DNA from: a virus
Length of the DNA: 58,164 bases
IMG/VR virus record: IMGVR_UViG_3300012349_000006
Coordinates: 1-58,164 of that record
Direction: 5' to 3' (one strand)
Each line of letters begins with the position of its first letter. The first letter of the stretch is position 1. The notes beneath the pieces are model-generated. The model saw nothing but the letters and a program-made list of their open reading frames with translations. It ran no database searches and was not told the origin of the DNA. Below, one piece after another: positions 14,770 to 49,268 of this stretch. The position numbers and the translations under genes are program-made.

Positions 14770-15343
14770 GTACCCGATACCAAGTGGTATTGGCAACGCG
14801 ATAAACCCATTCAAAACAGGATGCAGCGCCAGTGGTAGCCGGAACAACAGTAGCAGTAGGAGAGCCAAGAATAGTAGTACCAGAACCGGCAGTAACAGTT
14901 AAAGCAGTCACAACCTGAGTTGAACAAAGCCCCATTGTCTGATTGTCAACCAAACCAGCAGCAGCCGGGAAAGTGACAGTCAAGGTTGCAATGGTGCCAG
15001 CAGGTTCAAGGATCAAACGCCGCTGTTGTGCAGTCAAGGTAAGAGAGGCACCAGTAAGCGGAGCGTTGTACTGATACGGTCCTGCACCAAGCGAACGCGG
15101 CTGAATGAGGACGGTAGCTGGATTGATACCCTGTGCTTGGTTGGTATCGGCTGGAATGGTTTCGTTACCAGTGAGCGCAGCCGGACCGGCGGCAACAGTA
15201 TTAACGCAAACGCCAGAATTTTCAGAACCGGCGCAATAAGACGCATTGCTTACAATAGGCCAACCGGCAAAGTTGCCAGTAGCATAAGCAATTCCAACGC
15301 AAGCAACTAAAGCAGCAATGGCAAAAGAGAGTTTTTTAAACAT
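14765..15343 (-). CDS. Secreted protein, 192 aa, putative tail/adhesin
   Basis: Signal peptide (MFKKLSFAIAALVACVGIAYA), then a Cys-containing mature part: YCAGSENSGVCVNTVAAGPAAL...ETIPADTNQAQGINPATVLIQPRSLG, followed by a beta domain with LTLTAQQRRLILEPAGTIATLTVTFPA and a C-terminal SCFEWVYRVANTTWYRVQ. The last segment resembles C-terminal strands of phage tail or head decoration proteins. Tail association is inferred from the neighbours and composition. Two direct GTATCAAT repeats lie just upstream (about 15366-15391). Confidence 0.72.
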   Translation of the reverse strand: MFKKLSFAIAALVACVGIAYATGNFAGWPIVSNASYCAGSENSGVCVNTVAAGPAALTGNETIPADTNQAQGINPATVLIQPRSLGAGPYQYNAPLTGASLTLTAQQRRLILEPAGTIATLTVTFPAAAGLVDNQTMGLCSTQVVTALTVTAGSGTTILGSPTATVVPATTGAASCFEWVYRVANTTWYRVQ

Positions 15344-15387
15344 AGTTGTAGCTCCAAGGTTAAAAGTATCAATATCAACAGTATCAA

Positions 15388-16029
15388 TTAACCGTTACCA
15401 ACTAGCTTGATCTTCAACGGTAGCGGTTCGTCATTTGATATTGCTGATTTGATATTAGGAGCTTGTTCAACTAGCTTAGGCTGATCAGCAGCCTTAACGA
15501 AAATTACCTTCAAACCTTCATTATTGTTGAAATTATTAATGTTGGTTTCATTCTTATTAAGGAAGCCTCTGACTTCGGCATAAAGTTTTAAAGCGTTAAT
15601 GCGTTCCTTGGCTTCCAAAAAATAAACCTGCTTTTCGGGATGCTTTTCGTTCGCAATCTGCATCAACATAGCTGCGAAGCTGTCCTTGTCAAGCAAGGAC
15701 ATTTCCGCGTCAACAGCTTTCAGATATACGTCTTTTGCAGCCACTACTACAGGATCGGCTAACCAGTTAGAAGCTATCCACAGGGCTGCGCTGGTATCCT
15801 TCTCAAATATTTTACAGGCTGCTTCAAACGGTTTTCCACACTTGCCCCATTCAATCCCGAATTGCTTTTTAAGGGCGTCGTCATCAGCGTAGGAAGGCTT
15901 TGCAGTCTGTTTAGAAGCCCAAGGCGATACAGGAGCTATCGCCGTATTCCAGCCACCAGCGGGCGCGAAAACCTCTTTCGCATTATCGACGCTAAATGTA
16001 GATGGTCCCCAAGGCTGCATTCCCCACAC
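15388..16029 (-). CDS. terS: Probable terminase small subunit
   Basis: About 210 residues, soluble and helical. The core pattern (FGIEWGKCGKPFEAACKIFEKDTSAALWIASNWLADPVVVAAKDVYLK near residues 57-105; AAMLMQIANEKHPEKQVYFLEAKERINALKLYAEVRGFLNKNETNINNFNNNEGLKVIFV) matches, from memory, a family of phage small terminases that end with a ligand-like segment before a variable tail. The small subunit recognises the packaging site and feeds DNA to TerL. It is the first gene of the late block. The start is uncertain: GTG 16029 or ATG 16020. Neither has well-spaced Shine-Dalgarno, and GTGTGGGGA overlaps this point. It lies only 15-24 bases after a terminator. Confidence 0.6.
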   Translation of the reverse strand: MWGMQPWGPSTFSVDNAKEVFAPAGGWNTAIAPVSPWASKQTAKPSYADDDALKKQFGIEWGKCGKPFEAACKIFEKDTSAALWIASNWLADPVVVAAKDVYLKAVDAEMSLLDKDSFAAMLMQIANEKHPEKQVYFLEAKERINALKLYAEVRGFLNKNETNINNFNNNEGLKVIFVKAADQPKLVEQAPNIKSAISNDEPLPLKIKLVGNG

Positions 16030-16043
16030 ATAGCATAAATTTG

Positions 16044-16080
16044 AAAAGAGAAAAGGCCCTGCTTTTGCAGCAGAGCCTTT
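16044..16080 (-). terminator. Terminator between late promoter and late operon
   Basis: On the minus strand AAAGGCTCTGC and GCAGGGCCTTT pair with one mismatch around a short loop, followed by TTCTCTTTTC. The gap from the end of the T-rich tract to the first late start codon is about 15-24 bases, too short for a promoter, so the late genes must be transcribed through it. Confidence 0.75.
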
Positions 16081-16129
16081 TTACCCGGTACTTTACCCAT
16101 TGTGAGCCGGAACAATCGTTGATGCTCAA

Positions 16130-16158
16130 TCTCTAATGATTAAATTTGGTACTGTCAA
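16130..16158 (-). promoter_or_regulatory. Sigma70-type promoter, candidate late promoter
   Basis: On the minus strand TTGACA (16158-16153), 17 bases, then TAGAGA (16135-16130). It lies immediately after the stop of the 55-residue gene and reads into a leader of roughly 45-80 bases ending in the terminator at 16044-16080, then into the late genes. Confidence 0.65.
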
Positions 16159-16162
16159 GCGA

Positions 16163-16330
16163 CTAGTCGCGATTGACTGCATTCCACTGATCATCTTCAA
16201 CGTAACGCGCCATTTCTTCTTCGGCTTGATCCTTAGTTTCATAAACCTTGACTTGCTTGCCGTATTTATAAACTCCCCATTTGTTTTGAGCGTTACGATG
16301 AACCTCATACTTTGCATATTTGGTTGTCAT
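16163..16330 (-). CDS. Small protein, 55 aa (KWGVYK...; DUF2188-like pattern)
   Basis: A short ORF starting MTTKYAKYEVHRNAQN, with KWGVYKYGKQVKVYETKDQAEEEMARYVED at about residues 18-47. The order aromatic strand, Lys-rich strand, then a helix starting 'TKDQAEE' recalls the DUF2188-type fold. A good GGAGG lies eight bases before the ATG. A near-consensus promoter (16357-16385) is 27 bases upstream of the start. Function unknown. Confidence 0.75.
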   Translation of the reverse strand: MTTKYAKYEVHRNAQNKWGVYKYGKQVKVYETKDQAEEEMARYVEDDQWNAVNRD

Positions 16331-16542
16331 TTGTCATTCCTCCATTTGATATTGGTACAGTATCAGGACATACAGCTATTGTCAACAGCTATTTTAAAAT
16401 TTGCTGCAATGCAATAATCCCCGTTATTCACAAGGCGTTGTGTCGGATAGCGAACAGACAGAGCTTGAAAACGTGGTATAAAGGGGCAGTATCGTTCGCG
16501 TTCAACCCGCGTTTAATCCTAAAATGTAGGGGAATGAAAAAT
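16331..16542. other. Divergent intergenic region
   Basis: About 210 bases between the minus-strand 55-residue gene and the plus-strand zinc-ribbon gene. It contains the clear minus-strand promoter at 16357-16385. For the plus strand I see only weak candidates (a TTGAAA near 16467 with a poor -10), so the plus promoter is not called. Confidence 0.5.
16357..16385 (-). promoter_or_regulatory. Sigma70-type promoter for the 16330 gene
   Basis: On the minus strand TTGACA (16385-16380), 17 bases, TACTGT (16362-16357). The ATG of the 55-residue gene follows at 16330 with GGAGG between. Confidence 0.75.
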
Positions 16543-16773
16543 ATGAAATTAGCAAATGAAAGCACAGGTACAGCTACGCCTAAATTTGATAGCAGCTATC
16601 GCCGTTGTTCTTATTGTTCCAATCCGATGCTATTAGTAGAGTGTAAACCGGCCTATGTTGGTACTAATTCCAATGTCTATAGATGCTCTCGCTGTTCTAA
16701 TGTAGAAAAAGTGACAACCGTTACTAGAGCTTGGCTGATGGCTTGCAGTAAAGAGCTACAGCCTCCAACCTGA
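16543..16773 (+). CDS. Zinc-ribbon protein, 76 aa, opposite to neighbours
   Basis: Two Cys pairs, CSYC near residues 22-25 and CSRC near 48-51, form a four-Cys zinc ribbon (RRCSYCSNPMLLVE ... VYRCSRCSNVEK). I recall similar 60-90 residue proteins in alphaproteobacteria. The start at 16543 is chosen because GGGGA sits nine bases upstream; the nearer in-frame ATG at 16534 touches it. It is the only clear plus-strand gene in the first 32 kb and has its own terminator, which fits a self-contained moron-like unit. Confidence 0.75.
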   Translation: MKLANESTGTATPKFDSSYRRCSYCSNPMLLVECKPAYVGTNSNVYRCSRCSNVEKVTTVTRAWLMACSKELQPPT

Positions 16774-16832
16774 ATAGGCTTGCCAAAGTAGGGATAGATT
16801 ATCCCCCCATATCTATTTCACTTTGGCGGTTG

Positions 16833-16881
16833 CCCCAAGGGGCTAGAAGCACCAGCCCGCTCGCCCCTTGGGGTCTTTTTT
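16833..16881 (+). terminator. Strong intrinsic terminator of the zinc-ribbon gene
   Basis: CCCCAAGGGGC (16833-16843) pairs perfectly with GCCCCTTGGGG (16863-16873) and is followed by TCTTTTTT. The end overlaps the stop of the converging minus-strand gene. Confidence 0.88.
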
Positions 16882-17089
16882 AAAAATGTTTAGCGATGAT
16901 CAACTGCTGAATTACGATTTGTGCAAATGCATTAGGCCCAAAGCTTAGATTTACTATAAATCCCTCACTGTGAACCTTAGTCATTACGTCTAAAAATGCT
17001 TTGCTAACTTCAATGATTTCTTTTTTGATTTCATCTGCTCTGTCTTGATCAGATTTAGTAGTTACTAGTTTTACAGGTTGATCGTTCAT
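16880..17089 (-). CDS. Hypothetical protein, 69 aa
   Basis: Unknown. Helical N-terminal half rich in Lys/Glu (SDQDRADEIKKEIIEVSKAFLDVMTKV) and a hydrophobic C-terminal part (FAQIVIQQLIIAKHF). It is the last gene of a tightly overlapping minus-strand run: its start ATG lies next to the end of the KTSC gene. It ends at the terminator of the opposing zinc-ribbon gene. Confidence 0.7.
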   Translation of the reverse strand: MNDQPVKLVTTKSDQDRADEIKKEIIEVSKAFLDVMTKVHSEGFIVNLSFGPNAFAQIVIQQLIIAKHF

Positions 17090-17295: not shown

Positions 17296-17453
17296 TTAGC
17301 AGCTTCCTTTAACTGTTCAACTGTACTGGCAGCTATAATAGCTGCCAATTCGCAAAGTTGATCTTTAGTACATTTAAATTCATTGTTGCCTAAATCTACA
17401 AAGCCTAATAGCAAAGCTCCACTGACAATATGTAACTTCTCTGTTTCGTCCAT
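17292..17453 (-). CDS. Small protein, 53 aa
   Basis: Short ORF reading MDETEKLHIVSGALLLGFVDL, ending ASTVEQLKEAAK. It has GAGG upstream of the ATG and an ATGA overlap with the KTSC start. Mixed helical composition with no clear membrane segment. Function unknown. Confidence 0.65.
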   Translation of the reverse strand: MDETEKLHIVSGALLLGFVDLGNNEFKCTKDQLCELAAIIAASTVEQLKEAAK

Positions 17454-22035: not shown

Positions 22036-22875
22036 TTAATAATCAATCATCTCCATCAGTGTAGCCCAATCAGCTTCTTCAATTGACATTGTAACCATAT
22101 TTTCAGTATCGTCAATCCTGCCATTAGCATAAGCAGCTTCAATCAAATTCTTGAGATGGCTTTTCAGGTTGCTCCTGCTACCCTTACCAGAGCCTTTAGA
22201 ACCTTCACCAGAGCCTTCGCCATCCCCTGTATCCTTGGGCATGGCACGTTTGCGGCCTTGTTCGTTAGCCACCGCAACCGCACCGTTAAGCTCTGCAACA
22301 GTTAAGGCAACATCGCCATTATGCTTTTTGAATGTAGCCAGCACCATTGTAGCAGAAGCTTTGCCTTCAGTAATGAACTTCTGAAGGACAAGCGGCAATG
22401 TCAGCAATTCAAGCAATTGACTAACCCTACCACCGGACATGCCAGCTTTAACAGCAATGTCTTTCTGTGCCCATCCAAGATCAATCAAACGCTTAAAGAC
22501 TTTGGCTTGCTCAATGGCAGTAAGCGGCTTGCCTTGATTGTGAACGATCTGACTGAAAATTCTGTCAGCTTCATTAGCAAAACGATCTTCAACCATCACT
22601 GGGACGGTTTTGATTTCCACACCAGCATTAATAAGCTGCATCACAGCCTGCAATCGGCAATGCCCATCTGTCACATAGACAATTTCATTTTCCATGTAGC
22701 AGACAAGTGGCTTCTTTACTCCAATCTCTTTGATGGAGGCTGCAAGCGTTGCGATATGTTCGGCGTTAGCCGGATCAGAAGCATCACGGCTATTCCAGCC
22801 TTCTTTGGTCTGGATCAATTTGGGATCAACTCGATAAATGTCACTTCGGCCTTGCGCGATATCCTTGATTGCCAT
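22036..22875 (-). CDS. ParB/Srx-domain DNA-binding protein
   Basis: The N-terminal half matches the ParB nuclease-like domain: NAEHIATLAASIKEIGVKKPLVCYMENEIVYVTDGHCRLQA with the GHCRL motif near residue 71. A helix-turn-helix follows (AKVFKRLIDLGWAQKDIAVKAGMSGGRVSQLLELL, about 124-158). A Gly/Ser-rich linker (GDGEGSGEGSKGSGKGS) leads to a C-terminal helical domain. I see no ParA partner nearby, so it may be a phage transcription or replication factor rather than a partition protein. A perfect 12-bp inverted repeat in its leader is a candidate binding site. Confidence 0.9.
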   Translation of the reverse strand: MAIKDIAQGRSDIYRVDPKLIQTKEGWNSRDASDPANAEHIATLAASIKEIGVKKPLVCYMENEIVYVTDGHCRLQAVMQLINAGVEIKTVPVMVEDRFANEADRIFSQIVHNQGKPLTAIEQAKVFKRLIDLGWAQKDIAVKAGMSGGRVSQLLELLTLPLVLQKFITEGKASATMVLATFKKHNGDVALTVAELNGAVAVANEQGRKRAMPKDTGDGEGSGEGSKGSGKGSRSNLKSHLKNLIEAAYANGRIDDTENMVTMSIEEADWATLMEMIDY

Positions 22876-29263: not shown

Positions 29264-29437
29264 CTAATCCCCACACAATCTAAGATACTTCAATGCATCG
29301 GCATAACTGACTGTCTCCTGAATGATCACAGCCTTAACGCTTGATTGGCTAAACGCTTTAATTTCGCTATCATTTAGCCAAGGTGTTTCGGTATCGTCAA
29401 TCAATAAGATTTTAGTTCTGCGTGATATGATTTTCAT
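29264..29437 (-). CDS. Hypothetical protein, 57 aa
   Basis: MKIISRRTKILLIDDTETPW, then SEIKAFSQSSVKAVIIQETVSYADALKYLRLCGD. Strand, helix, strand, helix. The ATG overlaps the upstream stop. Function unknown. Its last codons contain TGTGTGGGGAT, a relative of the recurring motif. Confidence 0.6.
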   Translation of the reverse strand: MKIISRRTKILLIDDTETPWLNDSEIKAFSQSSVKAVIIQETVSYADALKYLRLCGD

Positions 29438-29682
29438 TTCTTCAGCTTTCTTATTTCTGCTTCAACAGCACTCAAGCATAGTAACCGTTCTGCATTTGCT
29501 TTAGGACCGCCGTAATTTCCTTTAGGAAATACAGGAGCTTTAAACACAGCTTTAACAGCCGCTTCAATTGCAGCATTCCATATCTCTCTACCATATACGC
29601 TTTGTGTGCTCCCAACCATCTTTCCAATGTCCACATCTTTAAGCTTTGCTTTGCAAACATCGTCTAAGCTATCATCTGTCAT
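29434..29682 (-). CDS. Hypothetical protein, 82 aa
   Basis: Acidic N-terminus, then helical (VYGREIWNAAIEAAVKAVFKAPVFPKGNYGGPKANAERLLCLSAVEAEIRKLKK). The pattern 'REIWNAAIEAA' recalls small phage proteins of unknown function near replication genes. GAGG precedes the ATG. It is the first gene downstream of the candidate origin. Confidence 0.66.
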   Translation of the reverse strand: MTDDSLDDVCKAKLKDVDIGKMVGSTQSVYGREIWNAAIEAAVKAVFKAPVFPKGNYGGPKANAERLLCLSAVEAEIRKLKK

Positions 29683-29729
29683 TTCTTCATCCTCTTTTCA
29701 TCTTGCACCAATTGATTGAATTAGGCCAA

Positions 29730-29952
29730 TAGATATCTACTTTTTCTATCTAACCCCTAAGTCCTTGTTTTTACTCTCTATCTAATATATCTAATATAAC
29801 TAATAGAGAGAGAAAGAGGCTTAGGGACAGGCTCTAGAGTGCCTTTAGCGACCATTAGATATTTATTTTGTTAGATATCCGATATCTAATAGCTTTTTCA
29901 AGCACTTAACCCCAAAAAGACCCCATTAGATATGCCTTTTGCCATTAGATAT
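29730..29952. repeat. ATTAGATAT iteron cluster, candidate replication origin
   Basis: In about 220 AT-rich bases without a gene, the 9-mer ATTAGATAT occurs at 29854, 29925 and 29944 (each preceded by CC). TTAGATATC-c-GATATCTAA forms a 19-base inverted repeat at 29871-29889. TATCTAATA is tandem at 29779 and 29788, followed by TAACTAATA at 29797. TAGATATCTA (29730-29739) and TATCTAA (29747) are further copies. About ten copies in both orientations next to a primase gene is the usual look of an iteron origin. A regulatory array is the alternative. Confidence 0.65.
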
Positions 29953-29957
29953 TTGGA

Positions 29958-32267
29958 TTATTGTACGTCCAAAATGCTCAAATCAGCCAACGCAAAGCAA
30001 CGCTGAGAAGTGCCGTACTTGTCATTAGTCCAAACCTTTCCAAGCTCTCTCATTCTATCAGCATCAACTAAGTTTTGAATTGCGCGTTTCATCGCAATGG
30101 TTGCGCCTGACTTATCATTGCGAAATGCAGAAGCAGCAGCCAAACGCTTATTCAAATAAGCATAAGGAATAACCTTATCGTTGTGCATCGGCTGCGACTT
30201 GAACTGCATATATTTTTCAACTCTCTCATATGGAGAAACAATGTAATCCTTAATTACCCGCAAAATTTCTTGTGCTTGCTTGATCTCAAACGAGTTGCTC
30301 CCGATTTCGCCAGCCTCAAAGCGTTCTGTCAAAGCCTTAATGTCAGCTTGAACTAAGTTAGCTGCCCATCGCATAGCATCAGCAGATATTGTGGGCTCAA
30401 GCATGTTTTCTCCAACAGCAATCAACGCCGAAAGCTTTAGCACTTTAACATGCGCTCTATTCCAAAGCTGCCTGATTACGTCTTTATTTGAACCATTAAT
30501 TCTACCATCTGAGTATTTGTCAAAGTCATGAAGTAGCTTGGTTGCTTCAGAACTTTGCTGCACATTAATAACACGGCGCGGATTTGAATGATTGATAGTC
30601 TCACATTGCGCGGCTAATGCTGCAAGTCTTTCGATTAAGCTAAAGCTAGGTATGACTGTTGTATGATGCTCATTTAACGGCGGTCTAATGCCCTTGTACT
30701 CGATCAACAGAAAACGCGGTAACAAGCCTTCAGCTATCATGTCTTCATTCAAGATACCATAAAAACGCTCTGGTGTGCTTTCACCAATGAAGCTAACAGC
30801 AGGAGACGGAATAGAAGACGTACTATCTTCTTTCTTGGCATATGCCGATGCAGCTAAATTACGACTTGCGCCTGACTTATTGTATAGATCAAGGATCATG
30901 CGACGTAACGAAACTTCAGCACCATTAGCATTAGGTGACGATAGCTGTTGCAGCCTTAAGCCAAACTCGCCAAGCAAGCTAACAAACGATTGAGATATAT
31001 TAGCAAGATGTTTGATCATTGCTGTACCAGACGATATTTCACCGGGACCAATGAAAGTTGTGGATGTAGGTACTTGCATTTTTATTGTAGCCATTAACTT
31101 GTCAATACCTTCAGCCGCCGCTTCCTTACCGGCTCCTGTCATCGCCAGCAGCAGCACATATTGATTTAATCCTGTGCCTGATATATTATAGGCTCTGCCA
31201 CAAATGCCAGCCATCAAGCCTATCGCAGCAGCTAGGGCTACCTCTGGTACAGGTCTAGGTGCAGCTTGATAAATGAATTGCGCGATTTCGCCTAGTAAGC
31301 CTGTTGGTAAATTCGGTACAGGATCAGGAGCAGCAGAGTTTGCCTTTACTGACGGTAGCTCCATTGGTAGCGTAGGCTCTAGCTCCTTTGCTAGCTTAAG
31401 CTCTAGCGCATTCTTCATTCCATCAAAGTCTATGTTTGGTAGCATACGGTCGAATGACCGATGTATCATACTGTTTACATAATCTTTACGTTTAGCTTTG
31501 TCTCTCCTGCCAAGTTGTGAGCTAGCAAAAATTCTTGTAATTTGGTTTTTGTTTTGCGTGTAGAAGCTGATAATATCAATAATGGCGAAGTCTGCTTCGG
31601 ATTGAGACTGATACACACTTTGCCAGTCACCACTATAAAGCTGCTTAAATTTTTCTCCATTAACGGCATTGGTAGCTTGAGTAATGATTTCTTCATCTGT
31701 CTTGGTTTCCTTTTCATCCCCTTTATACAAAGATTGAGCTACAGGACCGCTACCCATCTGTTCCCACAATTGAGTTAGCAGCGATTGCCTTTCATTAATT
31801 ACAGTTTTGTGATTATAAACGTTGCCGGTCATTGTCGCGTAACGTTGCGACGGATAAATTTCTATCTTGCTCCTACGCCGTCCTGCTGGTACAGTTCCTT
31901 TAACAATTATGTGCAGCCCTTTGCCAGATGGGCTAACTTCAGAATAGCTGTCAAACTCGTGGTAGACTTTCAAATGACGCTGTAATATAGCATCGTCGCC
32001 TTCAGCGTCGTCTAGATCAATGAAAGAGTAAGGGTCTTGATCAGTAAATACAAACCCCAACCCGCTATAGCTACTGTTGCCCAACCTGCTAACACACTCG
32101 CTAAATGTGCTAAACGTTGCTTTCTCGTTAACATTAGCTAATGCTCCGCTAGTAGAATAAGGCACCTTTGTAGGTTTTGCTGCGCCAACATCTTCATACT
32201 TCCACACTACCCATTGTTTGAGCGCGCGAAGTTCTTCAGGGATATTCTGAAATAAGTTACCACTCAT
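29958..32267 (-). CDS. Primase/polymerase-like and DUF3987 ATPase replication protein
   Basis: 769 residues. The N-terminal 150 residues match the NrS-1/PrimPol-like primase domain: PEELRALKQWVVWKYE at the start, the metal-binding FIDLDDAE (82-89), SPSGKGLHI (112-120) and EIYPSQRYATMTG (136-148). From about residue 315 a DUF3987 segment follows with a Walker-like AMTGAGKE (377-384), FIGPGEISSGTAMIKHL, FVSLLGEFG and LLPRFLLIEY. DUF3987 proteins are helicase-like partners of phage primases. I infer priming and unwinding at the adjacent iteron cluster. It is minus-strand while the polymerase block is plus-strand. Confidence 0.88.
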   Translation of the reverse strand: MSGNLFQNIPEELRALKQWVVWKYEDVGAAKPTKVPYSTSGALANVNEKATFSTFSECVSRLGNSSYSGLGFVFTDQDPYSFIDLDDAEGDDAILQRHLKVYHEFDSYSEVSPSGKGLHIIVKGTVPAGRRRSKIEIYPSQRYATMTGNVYNHKTVINERQSLLTQLWEQMGSGPVAQSLYKGDEKETKTDEEIITQATNAVNGEKFKQLYSGDWQSVYQSQSEADFAIIDIISFYTQNKNQITRIFASSQLGRRDKAKRKDYVNSMIHRSFDRMLPNIDFDGMKNALELKLAKELEPTLPMELPSVKANSAAPDPVPNLPTGLLGEIAQFIYQAAPRPVPEVALAAAIGLMAGICGRAYNISGTGLNQYVLLLAMTGAGKEAAAEGIDKLMATIKMQVPTSTTFIGPGEISSGTAMIKHLANISQSFVSLLGEFGLRLQQLSSPNANGAEVSLRRMILDLYNKSGASRNLAASAYAKKEDSTSSIPSPAVSFIGESTPERFYGILNEDMIAEGLLPRFLLIEYKGIRPPLNEHHTTVIPSFSLIERLAALAAQCETINHSNPRRVINVQQSSEATKLLHDFDKYSDGRINGSNKDVIRQLWNRAHVKVLKLSALIAVGENMLEPTISADAMRWAANLVQADIKALTERFEAGEIGSNSFEIKQAQEILRVIKDYIVSPYERVEKYMQFKSQPMHNDKVIPYAYLNKRLAAASAFRNDKSGATIAMKRAIQNLVDADRMRELGKVWTNDKYGTSQRCFALADLSILDVQ

Positions 32268-32323: not shown

Positions 32324-32512
32324 TTATTTTGCTAGCTTAATTTCAGCCGCTAATGCTTCTCTATAAACACGCTTTGTTACTTGCGCGATAGATAACCGTT
32401 GGTTTAGTCGCTTCTCTAATAATGCGCGAAGCTGCTCAATGCCGACGGCGTCATCGCCGGTAATGCTGATGTTGACGCGCGGTTCTTTAATGGTTTCTGA
32501 ATTTTCTGTCAT
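32324..32512 (-). CDS. Ribbon-helix-helix-like regulator, 62 aa
   Basis: PRVNISITGDDAVGIEQLRALLEKRLNQRLSIAQVTKRVYREALAAEIK has the order strand, helix, helix of Arc/CopG-type repressors. The start at 32512 begins MTENSETIKE; a longer reading upstream has no support. It sits at the divergence between minus and plus blocks and its upstream region holds repeated TTGAC boxes, so it may control one or both. DNA binding is inferred. Confidence 0.7.
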   Translation of the reverse strand: MTENSETIKEPRVNISITGDDAVGIEQLRALLEKRLNQRLSIAQVTKRVYREALAAEIKLAK

Positions 32513-32542
32513 GACAAGCACGGTTATCCCAAGAAAAAATTT

Positions 32543-32568
32543 TGTCAATGACGTTTTGACGCTTGACT
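32543..32568. promoter_or_regulatory. Clustered TTGAC boxes, candidate operators
   Basis: TGTCAATGACG, TTTTGACG and CTTGACTG lie in series at about 10-base intervals, in both orientations. Regular spacing of short half-sites is what ribbon-helix-helix repressors bind. The minus-strand TTGACA at 32548-32543 may be the -35 box of the regulator gene. Confidence 0.5.
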
Positions 32569-32668
32569 GCTTTTTTCCAACGTGTAAGCTTTTCAATGTT
32601 GAAGGGATCGGCGGATCGAAACGCACACATAGGAGCAACATCATGCTGCTTTGAGCGAAAGCAAAAAA

Positions 32669-34222: not shown

Positions 34223-34429
34223 ATGTTTAAGCAATACCGCAGAACGCAAATAGCAGAGATGGCATCATGGGAACCGGGGATGGACATGAAGGATATATCT
34301 ATATCTAATCCGGATAGAGACAATGGCTCCCCAAGAGAAGGCGACATGATAGCGCGCAATCCAAAAAATCACGCTGATCAATGGCTAGTAGCTGCACAGT
34401 ATTTTAACGATAACTTTGAGCCTATGTAA
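34223..34429 (+). CDS. Hypothetical protein, 68 aa
   Basis: MFKQYRRTQIAEMASWEPGM, then DMKDISISNPDRDNGSPREGDMIARNPKNHADQWLVAAQYFNDNFEPM. The 'GDMIARNPKNHADQWLVA.YF..NF' ending is a widespread small phage pattern of unknown role. AAAGG precedes the ATG. It is followed directly by the Sak4-like gene. Confidence 0.72.
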   Translation: MFKQYRRTQIAEMASWEPGMDMKDISISNPDRDNGSPREGDMIARNPKNHADQWLVAAQYFNDNFEPM

Positions 34430-47012: not shown

Positions 47013-49268
47013 TTAATTCACAATGCCGTAAATCTTTACTGTGCCGCTTGTGATATTACCGGATGAAAAGCTAACTTCTATTCCAGTAACAGCACCGTTA
47101 CCACCATCCCAATAACCGGAATTGATACTATGATCTATTAGTGAACTGCCACTATCTAGATGGAAAAAGGTTCCATTCATCATTTTACGAAATGTGGTGC
47201 TAGGAGCTTGATACATTATCAAGCGACCAGAAACACCGCCGCCGCTAGCCGAGTTATTAACTTGAGCTACGTTTATCGAACATGGAAAAAATGTAGTAGA
47301 TGCTGTATTAGAAGAACCACCAGTGTTAAACCCGCTACTAACGGTCAAATAGCTTGTGCTTTGAACACCGCCACTGTTAACCTTCAAGCGGCATTGAACA
47401 GCAGTGGTTGCTGGCAGGACGTTATCAAATACAATTTCATAATCATTATAAGTTGACGTAAAGCTTGTGGTATCAGATAAAGTAGCGCCACCGCTACCAG
47501 TCAAGGTATTGAGTAACACCTTATTTCCACTAGCAACAGCACAAGTACCATTAGTGACGATTACTCCACCTGATAAACCAGCCCCGCAAGTAACGCTGCT
47601 CACACCACCAGCAGCAGCCGCTCCTAATGCTTGTGCAGTCCATTTTGAAATACCATCGCTTTTAAAAAGATAAGCGCCATTAGCTACAACCATAGTAACT
47701 GACGTTGCTCCATTTATAGTATCTGAGCCTGCTCTAGTAATTATAAGTGTATTTGTTGCTGTAACAGTGCTTTGAAAATCAGCTATAACAATTTCTTGAC
47801 CGGGATTAACAGCATTGGCGGCTGGTAAGGTCCAAGTTCTAGACGCCGTAAATGTTGCATTGGTTCCAACAGTTCTATCCGTTGGCAAAATAGTATAAAT
47901 ACTATCGCCATGTCCTGTATATTGATCTACGTTCAATCCGCCAGAGGCTCTAGCGGCAGGAGCGGTAACTTGCCCTGTGCCACCTTGGGCTAAAGTTATA
48001 GGAAGGTTTACGCTGATATTATTACCAGTGCAAGTTAAGCCTCCCGTACAAGCAATATCTCCTACCATGCTACCAAGTGAAGTAACACCAGTAGACACAG
48101 ATGATGCGCTATCAGGAGTTACTTTAATAATATAATTAATAGTCTTTTCAGGAGGAACGTTAGCAATAACTAAAGGAGTACCGCTAGTGTTATTAGACGT
48201 AACGCTTATTGCGTTATTACCAGCCGAGTTAACTGTAAGTCTGTGGCCGCTTGATGCTATATAACCAAATGAGCCGCCACTTGTTGCTACAGCTTGATCA
48301 GGCTCAAGCTGCATAAACACCGTGCTAGATGCAACACTAATTGCCTGTGCTGCGTTTGCAGATGTAATGCCTGTTGGCAAATTAGCTAAGGCTAAAGCGA
48401 TACTTGCGCTTTGATTACCACCAGCCGCACCAATGGAGTTAGGATTAGTAGCTCCGAAGTATGTTGCTGTTAAATTTGCCGAGGCTGTACCGCCCATGTT
48501 ATTGTTACCAGCAAGGGTTAAGCCTCTAAAATCTGGTAAGTTAAAAGTGGTGGTACCGTTGCCTCTGCCCCAAGGAAAAAATACCGCCGTTGCGCTAACT
48601 GTGGTGTTAGCATTAGCAGCTAATGTTACGCTAGAAGAAGTCTTAGAAATAATGGTAGAAAAACCAGCAGCCAAGCAAGAAACTTCAACAGGCATTCCAA
48701 TCCAAAAATTTGTAGTGTCTCCTACACCGCTTAGTATGGGGCTACCAGAATTACAAAACACCGATTGACTAGACGTAATGGCCGTAAGCAAAACAGCGTA
48801 TGTAGTTCTTGATAATTCTTGCCCGTAAGTAAATAAATATTGATTAGGCGCAACCATGCCAGCCCAAGGTTTCACTGTTCCAACTAAATCACCATCACCC
48901 GTACCCGATGTTCCTCCACCGCCAGAGCCAACTGACGAAGTGTTCTGATCCCAAATGACATTGCCATTGCGATCTTTAACAACTTGGCGATAGGTACCAG
49001 AACCTAAAATCAAACCTCTACCGGCTGCATCCAACACAACCGGATTTAAATTTGGAACGGTTTCAGCCGCGTCTTGCCAAGTCGTCTTGCGGGTAGTAGT
49101 AGATGGAATATAAAAATCTACCGTTCCCTTAACTAACGGTTTGCCGTTCTGATCCACAAATGTAGTTTTGGCAGGAGGTAAAATGCTAGCCGTTTGAGCA
49201 TAAGCAAAATGTACCTGTGCAACCATCAATAACGACAATAAGAAAGTTTTAAAAATGGAAAACTTCAT
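47013..49268 (-). CDS. Tail fibre with collar domain and signal peptide, 751 aa
   Basis: The N-terminus MKFSIFKTFLLSLLMVAQVHFAYAQ is a Sec signal peptide. Then a beta domain (TTFVDQNGKPLVKGTVDFYIPSTTTRKTTWQDAAETVPNLNPVVLDAAGRG, residues 35-90), a phage tail collar domain (GMVAPNQYLFTYGQELSRTTYAVLL ... FNLPDFRGLTLAGNNNMGG, about 135-260), fibre repeats (TLAQGGTGQVTAPAAR), and a C-terminal sandwich (YNDYEIVFDNVLPATTAVQCRLKVNSGG) common to phage fibres. Collar-type fibres mediate adsorption. The signal peptide is unusual for a virion protein. A short plus-strand ORF overlaps its 5' end. Confidence 0.85.
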   Translation of the reverse strand: MKFSIFKTFLLSLLMVAQVHFAYAQTASILPPAKTTFVDQNGKPLVKGTVDFYIPSTTTRKTTWQDAAETVPNLNPVVLDAAGRGLILGSGTYRQVVKDRNGNVIWDQNTSSVGSGGGGTSGTGDGDLVGTVKPWAGMVAPNQYLFTYGQELSRTTYAVLLTAITSSQSVFCNSGSPILSGVGDTTNFWIGMPVEVSCLAAGFSTIISKTSSSVTLAANANTTVSATAVFFPWGRGNGTTTFNLPDFRGLTLAGNNNMGGTASANLTATYFGATNPNSIGAAGGNQSASIALALANLPTGITSANAAQAISVASSTVFMQLEPDQAVATSGGSFGYIASSGHRLTVNSAGNNAISVTSNNTSGTPLVIANVPPEKTINYIIKVTPDSASSVSTGVTSLGSMVGDIACTGGLTCTGNNISVNLPITLAQGGTGQVTAPAARASGGLNVDQYTGHGDSIYTILPTDRTVGTNATFTASRTWTLPAANAVNPGQEIVIADFQSTVTATNTLIITRAGSDTINGATSVTMVVANGAYLFKSDGISKWTAQALGAAAAGGVSSVTCGAGLSGGVIVTNGTCAVASGNKVLLNTLTGSGGATLSDTTSFTSTYNDYEIVFDNVLPATTAVQCRLKVNSGGVQSTSYLTVSSGFNTGGSSNTASTTFFPCSINVAQVNNSASGGGVSGRLIMYQAPSTTFRKMMNGTFFHLDSGSSLIDHSINSGYWDGGNGAVTGIEVSFSSGNITSGTVKIYGIVN

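Follow-up and report, generated by a model that had tools for sequence, protein, structure and literature searches.

In the viral record IMGVR_UViG_3300012349_000006 (positions 1 to 58,164; this whole stretch of 58,164 nucleotides is called the window below), a gap of 275 bp at positions 29683-29957 lies between the end of a gene for a predicted primase-helicase (29958-32267, minus strand) and a small gene (29434-29682, also minus strand). The element considered here is a cluster of short repeats, or iterons, in this gap. The absence of an open reading frame (ORF), the number of iterons relative to shuffled sequences and the position kept in relatives led us to predict that the gap is a replication origin.

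The repeat cluster and the adjacent primase-helicase

No gene-like ORF crossed positions 29683-29957 when the ORFs of the window were checked. The gap held ten sites matching ATTAGATAT with at most one mismatch, five of them exactly, whereas 3000 dinucleotide shuffles of the same DNA averaged 0.49 such sites, the highest count being 4. It was also AT-rich (65.8% compared to 57.6% for the whole window, rising to 78% over the right tandem set described below), in agreement with a preliminary description that had reported about ten copies of a 9-mer in gene-free AT-rich DNA. That description further expected the 9-mer not to be spread elsewhere, and this held: 36 sites were found in the entire window against 25 expected, and subtraction of the ten in the gap left 26, which is the chance level, with a single exact copy beyond the gap (at 34301). 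Among the 8-mer and 9-mer clusters of the window this one was the tightest. It adjoins the 3' side of the primase gene and is not upstream of that gene.

The iterons form two sets. The left set, nearest the primase (29852-29952), contains CCATTAGATAT at 29852, 29923 and 29942 and a 9-1-9 inverted pair, TTAGATATC-C-GATATCTAA, at 29871-29889, and reads ATATCTAATGG along the primase strand; its counterparts in relatives are sets of ATCTAACG, TATAATGG or TTCTTACG. The right set consists of three tandem copies in the opposite orientation with a 9-bp pitch (starting at 29778, 29787 and 29796; 29778-29804, minus strand), embedded in AT-rich DNA. Outer copies at 29728-29753 comprise the palindrome TAGATATCTA (29730-29739) and a TTAGATA on the minus strand (29747-29753). 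The direct copies at 29854, 29925 and 29944, the tandem inverted copies at 29779 and 29788, the 19-base inverted repeat and the palindrome at 29730 listed in the preliminary description were thus all recovered. The array region had no match in Rfam, and a search of viral contigs for the exact palindrome TTAGATATCNGATATCTAA returned nothing.

The primase-helicase (769 amino acids), the predicted initiator, was assigned from Pfam, PHROG 3022 ('DNA primase', E=1.8e-231) and the PDB chains 7ola and 6k9a. It comprises an archaeo-eukaryotic primase domain, an NrS-1-type helix-bundle domain (HBD), a DUF3987 helicase-like part and a predicted C-terminal winged helix. The HBD match is weak, scoring just under the Pfam cut-off in the window protein and over it in the relative L103. 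The primase domain matched 7ola, which we take to be PriRep1 of the Staphylococcus aureus pathogenicity island SaPI5, with E=8e-43, and the NrS-1 primase structures (6k9a) with E=4e-33. The C-terminal 130 residues (640-769; 29961-30350, minus strand), our predicted iteron binder, showed the order of elements of a winged helix in an AlphaFold2 model (predicted local distance difference test, pLDDT, 88.7) and aligned to many winged-helix chains with Z scores of 7.5-9.3 (VIA-align). Foldseek alone gave no significant PDB match for this domain, and its assignment as a winged helix is based on VIA-align and the element order. For the small gene on the far side of the array there was no Pfam or PHROG match and no relatives were confirmed by search.

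Arrays in relatives and their interpretation as an origin

Relatives of the primase were taken from viral contigs, bacterial genomes and named phages. An array was present at the same place in about 17 viral relatives, several cultured phages (Lucius, ytsc, Axy20, PSA and phiSP15-1) and NrS-1. The spelling of the repeat differed between phages (TTAGATAT, TATAATGG, TTCTTACG, TACATAAT, CCGAAAACA or AGTGTAAC), and the letters changed together within each phage, while many divergent relatives had retained the position and layout. The array directly 3' of the primase had the spelling TTAGATA in L008, L018, L019, L025 and L028, an TATAATGG-like form in L030, L031 and L103, TTCTTA in L014 and L032, and TACATAAT in L024; weaker arrays followed the primases of L016, L017 and L034. 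In the recurring layout a left set runs along the primase strand, often with ACG or ATGG at its end, and is followed by an oppositely oriented tandem set of two to three copies, with a pitch of 8-10 bp, inside AT-rich DNA. The tandem pitch was about 9 bp whatever the letters, and sets like the right set of the window occurred in L014, L018, L019, L025, L030, L031 and L032. L024 was an exception with a single orientation throughout, and in L008 a stretch is inserted between the primase and the array, which is still present. Arrays with other letters were also located at about +1 to +270 in the Firmicutes relatives L050, L054, L055, L056, L059, L067 and L074. The primases of these Firmicutes are prophage or satellite genes, and in most of them the array core is up to 80-90% AT.

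NrS-1 was left out when the model was built. Its complete genome (L219, AB746912) carries 11 copies of AGTGTAAC in two orientations between 17062 and 17377, beginning some 10 bp beyond the end of the primase gene (14895-17051). This position fits the published remark that recognition sites in the centre of the NrS-1 genome may be the origin (PMC7102993). The array underlies an ORF annotated as the hypothetical protein NRS1_29.

An array beside the primase is therefore common but not universal, and a considerable minority of relatives is without one. In L094 and L097 (Septimatrevirus), repeated promoter-like blocks (GTTGACG..CTTCGAA) and no iteron array were seen before small genes past the primase stop.

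Three features of iteron origins, namely repeats clustered above chance, AT-rich DNA and an adjacent gene for a predicted DNA-binding initiator, were found at the gap. We consider it highly probable that the gap 29683-29957 is an iteron-type replication origin with the adjacent primase-helicase as its initiator, as the preliminary description had suggested; the position and layout kept in divergent relatives and the array in NrS-1 support this assignment. The changing spelling within a kept layout suggests that replication specificity can switch readily between similar phages.

The same array could instead serve as an operator bound by a small regulator that controls the downstream small genes. 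Ribbon-helix-helix and helix-turn-helix proteins can bind tandem short repeats, and a small gene follows the array. A second small gene precedes the primase (32324-32644, minus strand, its real start perhaps at 32512; no Pfam match), whose product by eye is ribbon-helix-helix-like in the window, L008, L030 and L103 and helix-turn-helix-like in L024, L025, L031, L032 and L034. In plasmid pRN1 the repressor gene orf56 shares an operon with the replication gene (PMC4234260). However, the fold of the regulator changes while the TTAGATA iterons stay (ribbon-helix-helix-like in the window and L008, helix-turn-helix-like in L025), and one type of regulator goes with different iterons. In addition, the array lies 3' of the primase, distant from the regulator's own promoter, and promoter-like and terminator sites in the region occurred at chance level only. 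We thus regard the operator function as improbable. Since the regulator fold switches without the iteron following it and the primase is shared, the binder is more likely the primase, and the iterons would be bound by its own winged helix. The model adopted here is that of SaPI Rep and of Cch2 from the staphylococcal cassette chromosome mec (SCCmec), whose C-terminal domains bind iterons just downstream of their own genes (PMC7581432).

Two further functions were considered for the gap. A large hairpin recognised by the primase would resemble the origin of pRN1, located in the 166 bp that follow its primase gene on the 3' side, and in the window the right half does fold well (z -2.2 for the gap and -2.5 for the right block). 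Nevertheless, most of 14 right blocks folded no better than shuffled sequences, so that a conserved large hairpin was rejected; iterons and arms are shared instead, and a stem-loop origin seems very improbable. It is still harder to believe that the array is a centromere-like or structural site for a phage ParB-like protein: such a gene exists in the window (22036-22875, minus strand), but it is 7 kb away, and the array stays with the primase in the relatives and NrS-1.

Flanking arms and a genome-wide 8-mer

The array is often flanked by inverted arms, TTTCAANNACTTA, resembling sites of the integration host factor (IHF). In the window the left arm is TTTCAAGCACTTA (TAAGTGCTTGAAA on the primase strand) at 29896-29908 (plus strand) and the right arm, its inverted copy AAACAAGGACTTA, is at 29758-29770 (minus strand). 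Both match the family element at 13 of 13 positions, each being the only match of its kind in the DNA scanned around the primase. Across the family, the position of TAAGTSNTTGAAA ranged from +43 to +112 and that of AAACARRGACTTA from +180 to +298. Elsewhere in the loci, elements matching at 12-13 of 13 positions were nearly absent, a comparison that is partly circular, as the consensus came from the same sequences. As an independent test, a scan of all viral contigs for the arm pair, made without regard to primases, gave 19 matches. Four of these adjoined primases of the window's family, the one in L103 being new, and those in L104 and L114 were directly 3' of distant Prim-Pol/PriCT-2 primases, each with repeats of its own. 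The pair in L111 was upstream of another primase, and the remaining matches were chance matches in coding DNA, attP- or tRNA-like sites and unassigned gaps. In L116 (4490-4663) an arm pair lies beside an integrase gene in an attP-like setting, and in L106 and L117 it lies in tRNA/att-like sites; arm pairs at such places would fit IHF sites in attP.

Of 25 aligned arm elements, 23 agreed with the IHF consensus WATCARNNNNTTR, which is low in information, at 8 or 9 of its 9 positions. Perfect IHF consensus matches were at chance level in the window, with none in the gap. Alternatively, the arms may be template sites for the primase, one per strand: the inverted pair flanks the array, a central AC present in 23 of the 25 elements exceeds what IHF needs, and NrS-1 has a specific 8-nt priming site. 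The fit to the IHF consensus, the similar pair beside the integrase gene of L116 and the existence of a better priming candidate, the genome-wide word TGTGGNNA, speak against this alternative, and we find it unlikely.

The latter word was first noticed when TGTGGGCA recurred in different genes and frames while flanking regions were compared. It is a clade-specific 8-mer, TGTGGGCA in most genomes and TGTGGGVA in the window. When the relatives were pooled, no 8-mer was more strongly over-represented than TGTGGGCA (96 copies against 4.1 expected), and most carriers had 13-29 copies of the word per genome compared to 0-2 of a reversed control. Strand and spacing were analysed over 450 sites in 23 genomes, with TGTGGGSA used for the window. 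The word was commoner on the primase-coding strand in 22 of the 23 genomes (p 6e-6), and its same-strand spacing was regular (combined p ~4e-23 on the primase strand), although relatedness of the genomes makes these p-values optimistic. Control 8-mers had a median coefficient of variation of spacing of 0.94, and only 1.3% of them matched the regularity of the median genome. The interval was about 3 kb per strand, genes and gaps had similar densities of the word, and the strand bias was not limited to genes on the primase strand. In 12 of 14 array carriers the first copy on the primase strand came after the array, at a distance of 265-683 bp from the primase stop. In the window this first candidate start word is TGTGGGGA at 29268-29275 (minus strand), 683 bp past the stop. 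TGTGGGVA occurred there 25 times against 4.3 expected, with 17 copies on the primase strand at regular spacing (p 0.004); the strand bias of the window taken by itself was not significant (p 0.11). Other sites of the word in the window include 34599 (minus) and 39203 (plus), and the word is also found in the relatives G001-G017 and W01-W14.

More distant primases are accompanied by related words: Greed has TGTGGTTA (45 copies), and JG054, MiCath and BRET have TGTGGTCA (33-34 copies). The word tracked the primase and not the Cas4 exonuclease or the DNA polymerase, with ytsc, L008 and L029 as imperfect cases. The NrS-1 polymerase primes in vitro at GTGG/GTGA and at TTTGGTTA, GTGG being efficient and TTTGGTTA the site first mapped (PMC8718748). 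Because the word tracks the primase and its GTGG core equals this priming site, it is likely a primase start signal. TTTGGTTA was absent from the origin of the window, where a single copy occurred at 48262 and TGTGGGVA was over-represented instead. In NrS-1 the mapped TTTGGTTA site (17198) and one TGTGGTTA (17210) are inside the array and a further TGTGGTTA is at 17438. Because two iterons meet within the TTTGGTTA match, its resemblance to the words of other phages may be coincidental in part. The orientation, spacing and over-representation of the word would also suit a Chi-like signal for recombination, recognised by the RecB/Cas4 exonuclease of the phage, and the window encodes a Cas4-domain exonuclease. 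However, Axy20 carries the word and has no match to the Cas4 protein, and Greed, JG054, MiCath and BRET combine a similar Cas4 and polymerase with different words and more distant primases, which leaves a Chi-like role rather doubtful.

Proposed initiation, known systems and implications

From the array, its kept position and layout, its changing spelling, the winged-helix prediction and the word statistics, all directly observed or computed, we infer origin function, binding partners, DNA opening and priming. The C-terminal winged helix of the primase-helicase would bind the ATTAGATAT iterons in the two opposed sets, and the TTTCAANNACTTA arms would fold the array, probably through binding of a DNA-bending host protein such as IHF. 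The helicase part may then open the AT-rich tandem set, and priming by the primase part may begin at the first TGTGGGVA past the array. Further copies of this word, about every 3.5 kb on the primase strand, could serve later priming.

Several observations weigh against this model. The GC-skew switch that the preliminary description anticipated at the cluster, and whose absence it counted as a refutation, was absent; the cumulative skew continues to fall from 29 to 33 kb and reverses near 33 kb, together with a switch in gene direction. We gave this little weight because skew in such small genomes follows gene direction; a skew switch does not define phage origins. The primases of L011, L012, L015, Septimatrevirus, Erwinia AH03, XAJ2, RcSpartan, IMEAB3 and Seuratvirus/Nonagvirus have no array directly 3'. 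The consensus for the arms was derived by eye, using the very sequences scored with it, and the putative role of the arms as IHF sites depends on the low-information IHF consensus. No column of the primase, the winged helix included, significantly tracked the iteron letters in a comparison of 13 sequences with low power, the best winged-helix candidate being residue 706 (N in 8 of 9 versus Q/S/S/A, p ~0.05 uncorrected). Finally, the word is scarce in L008, the close relative whose iterons are of the TTAGATA type.

Our literature searches for a previous description of this origin or of the TGTGGNNA word yielded nothing usable; Lactobacillus phage A2 may have a mapped origin of a comparable kind. 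The alpha protein of phage P4 differs from the primase-helicase of the window in its Toprim-type primase, and the P4 ori is placed differently from the array. The alpha protein is similar in joining a primase, a helicase and a winged-helix iteron binder in one protein (PMC4234260). The pRN1 system has a prim-pol with a C-terminal winged helix, an origin just 3' of its gene and a repressor in the operon (PMC4234260), but its origin is a stem-loop without iterons. NrS-1 shares the related primase domain, the weak HBD match and the iteron array 3' of the gene, and differs in its iteron (AGTGTAAC), its start word, the lack of such arms and the annotated ORF over the array. In SaPIs (Rep helicases and the SaPI5 primase-helicase) and in SCCmec (Cch2), as in the window, short iterons lie directly 3' of the gene for the initiator helicase, and SaPI-type origins likewise have two iteron sets with AT-rich DNA directly 3' of the (primase-)helicase gene. 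Their C-terminal DNA-binding domain recognises the iterons (PMC7581432), a property only predicted for the protein of the window. The window differs from both in the DUF3987 helicase-like part (the helicase parts are unmatched by sequence, and in the comparison with 7ola only the primase domain matches), in belonging to tailed phages of apparently Gram-negative hosts, and in its opposed sets with a 9-bp tandem block and IHF-like arms. The locus would thus be an iteron origin of the SaPI kind, located 3' of the gene for its primase-helicase initiator, with a layout of its own and an initiator from a new protein family.

The model offers a prediction of the site and mode of replication initiation in a widespread phage group, including NrS-1, whose polymerase is a biochemical model, and the cultured phages Lucius, Axy20, ytsc, PSA and NrS-1 are available for testing the prediction. 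Whether phages with NrS-1-like primases generally combine a clade-specific start code, TGTGGNNA at intervals of about 3 kb and denser on the primase strand, with an origin of re-spelled iterons seems to us evenly balanced. If they do, one could tell directly from sequence where the origin and the starts of lagging-strand synthesis lie in a large group of phages, and primase specificity would have evolved stepwise through TGTGGGCA, TGTGGGGA, TGTGGTTA and TGTGGTCA. If the word is the primase start site, both primase specificity and the pattern of lagging-strand starts could be inferred from genome statistics alone.
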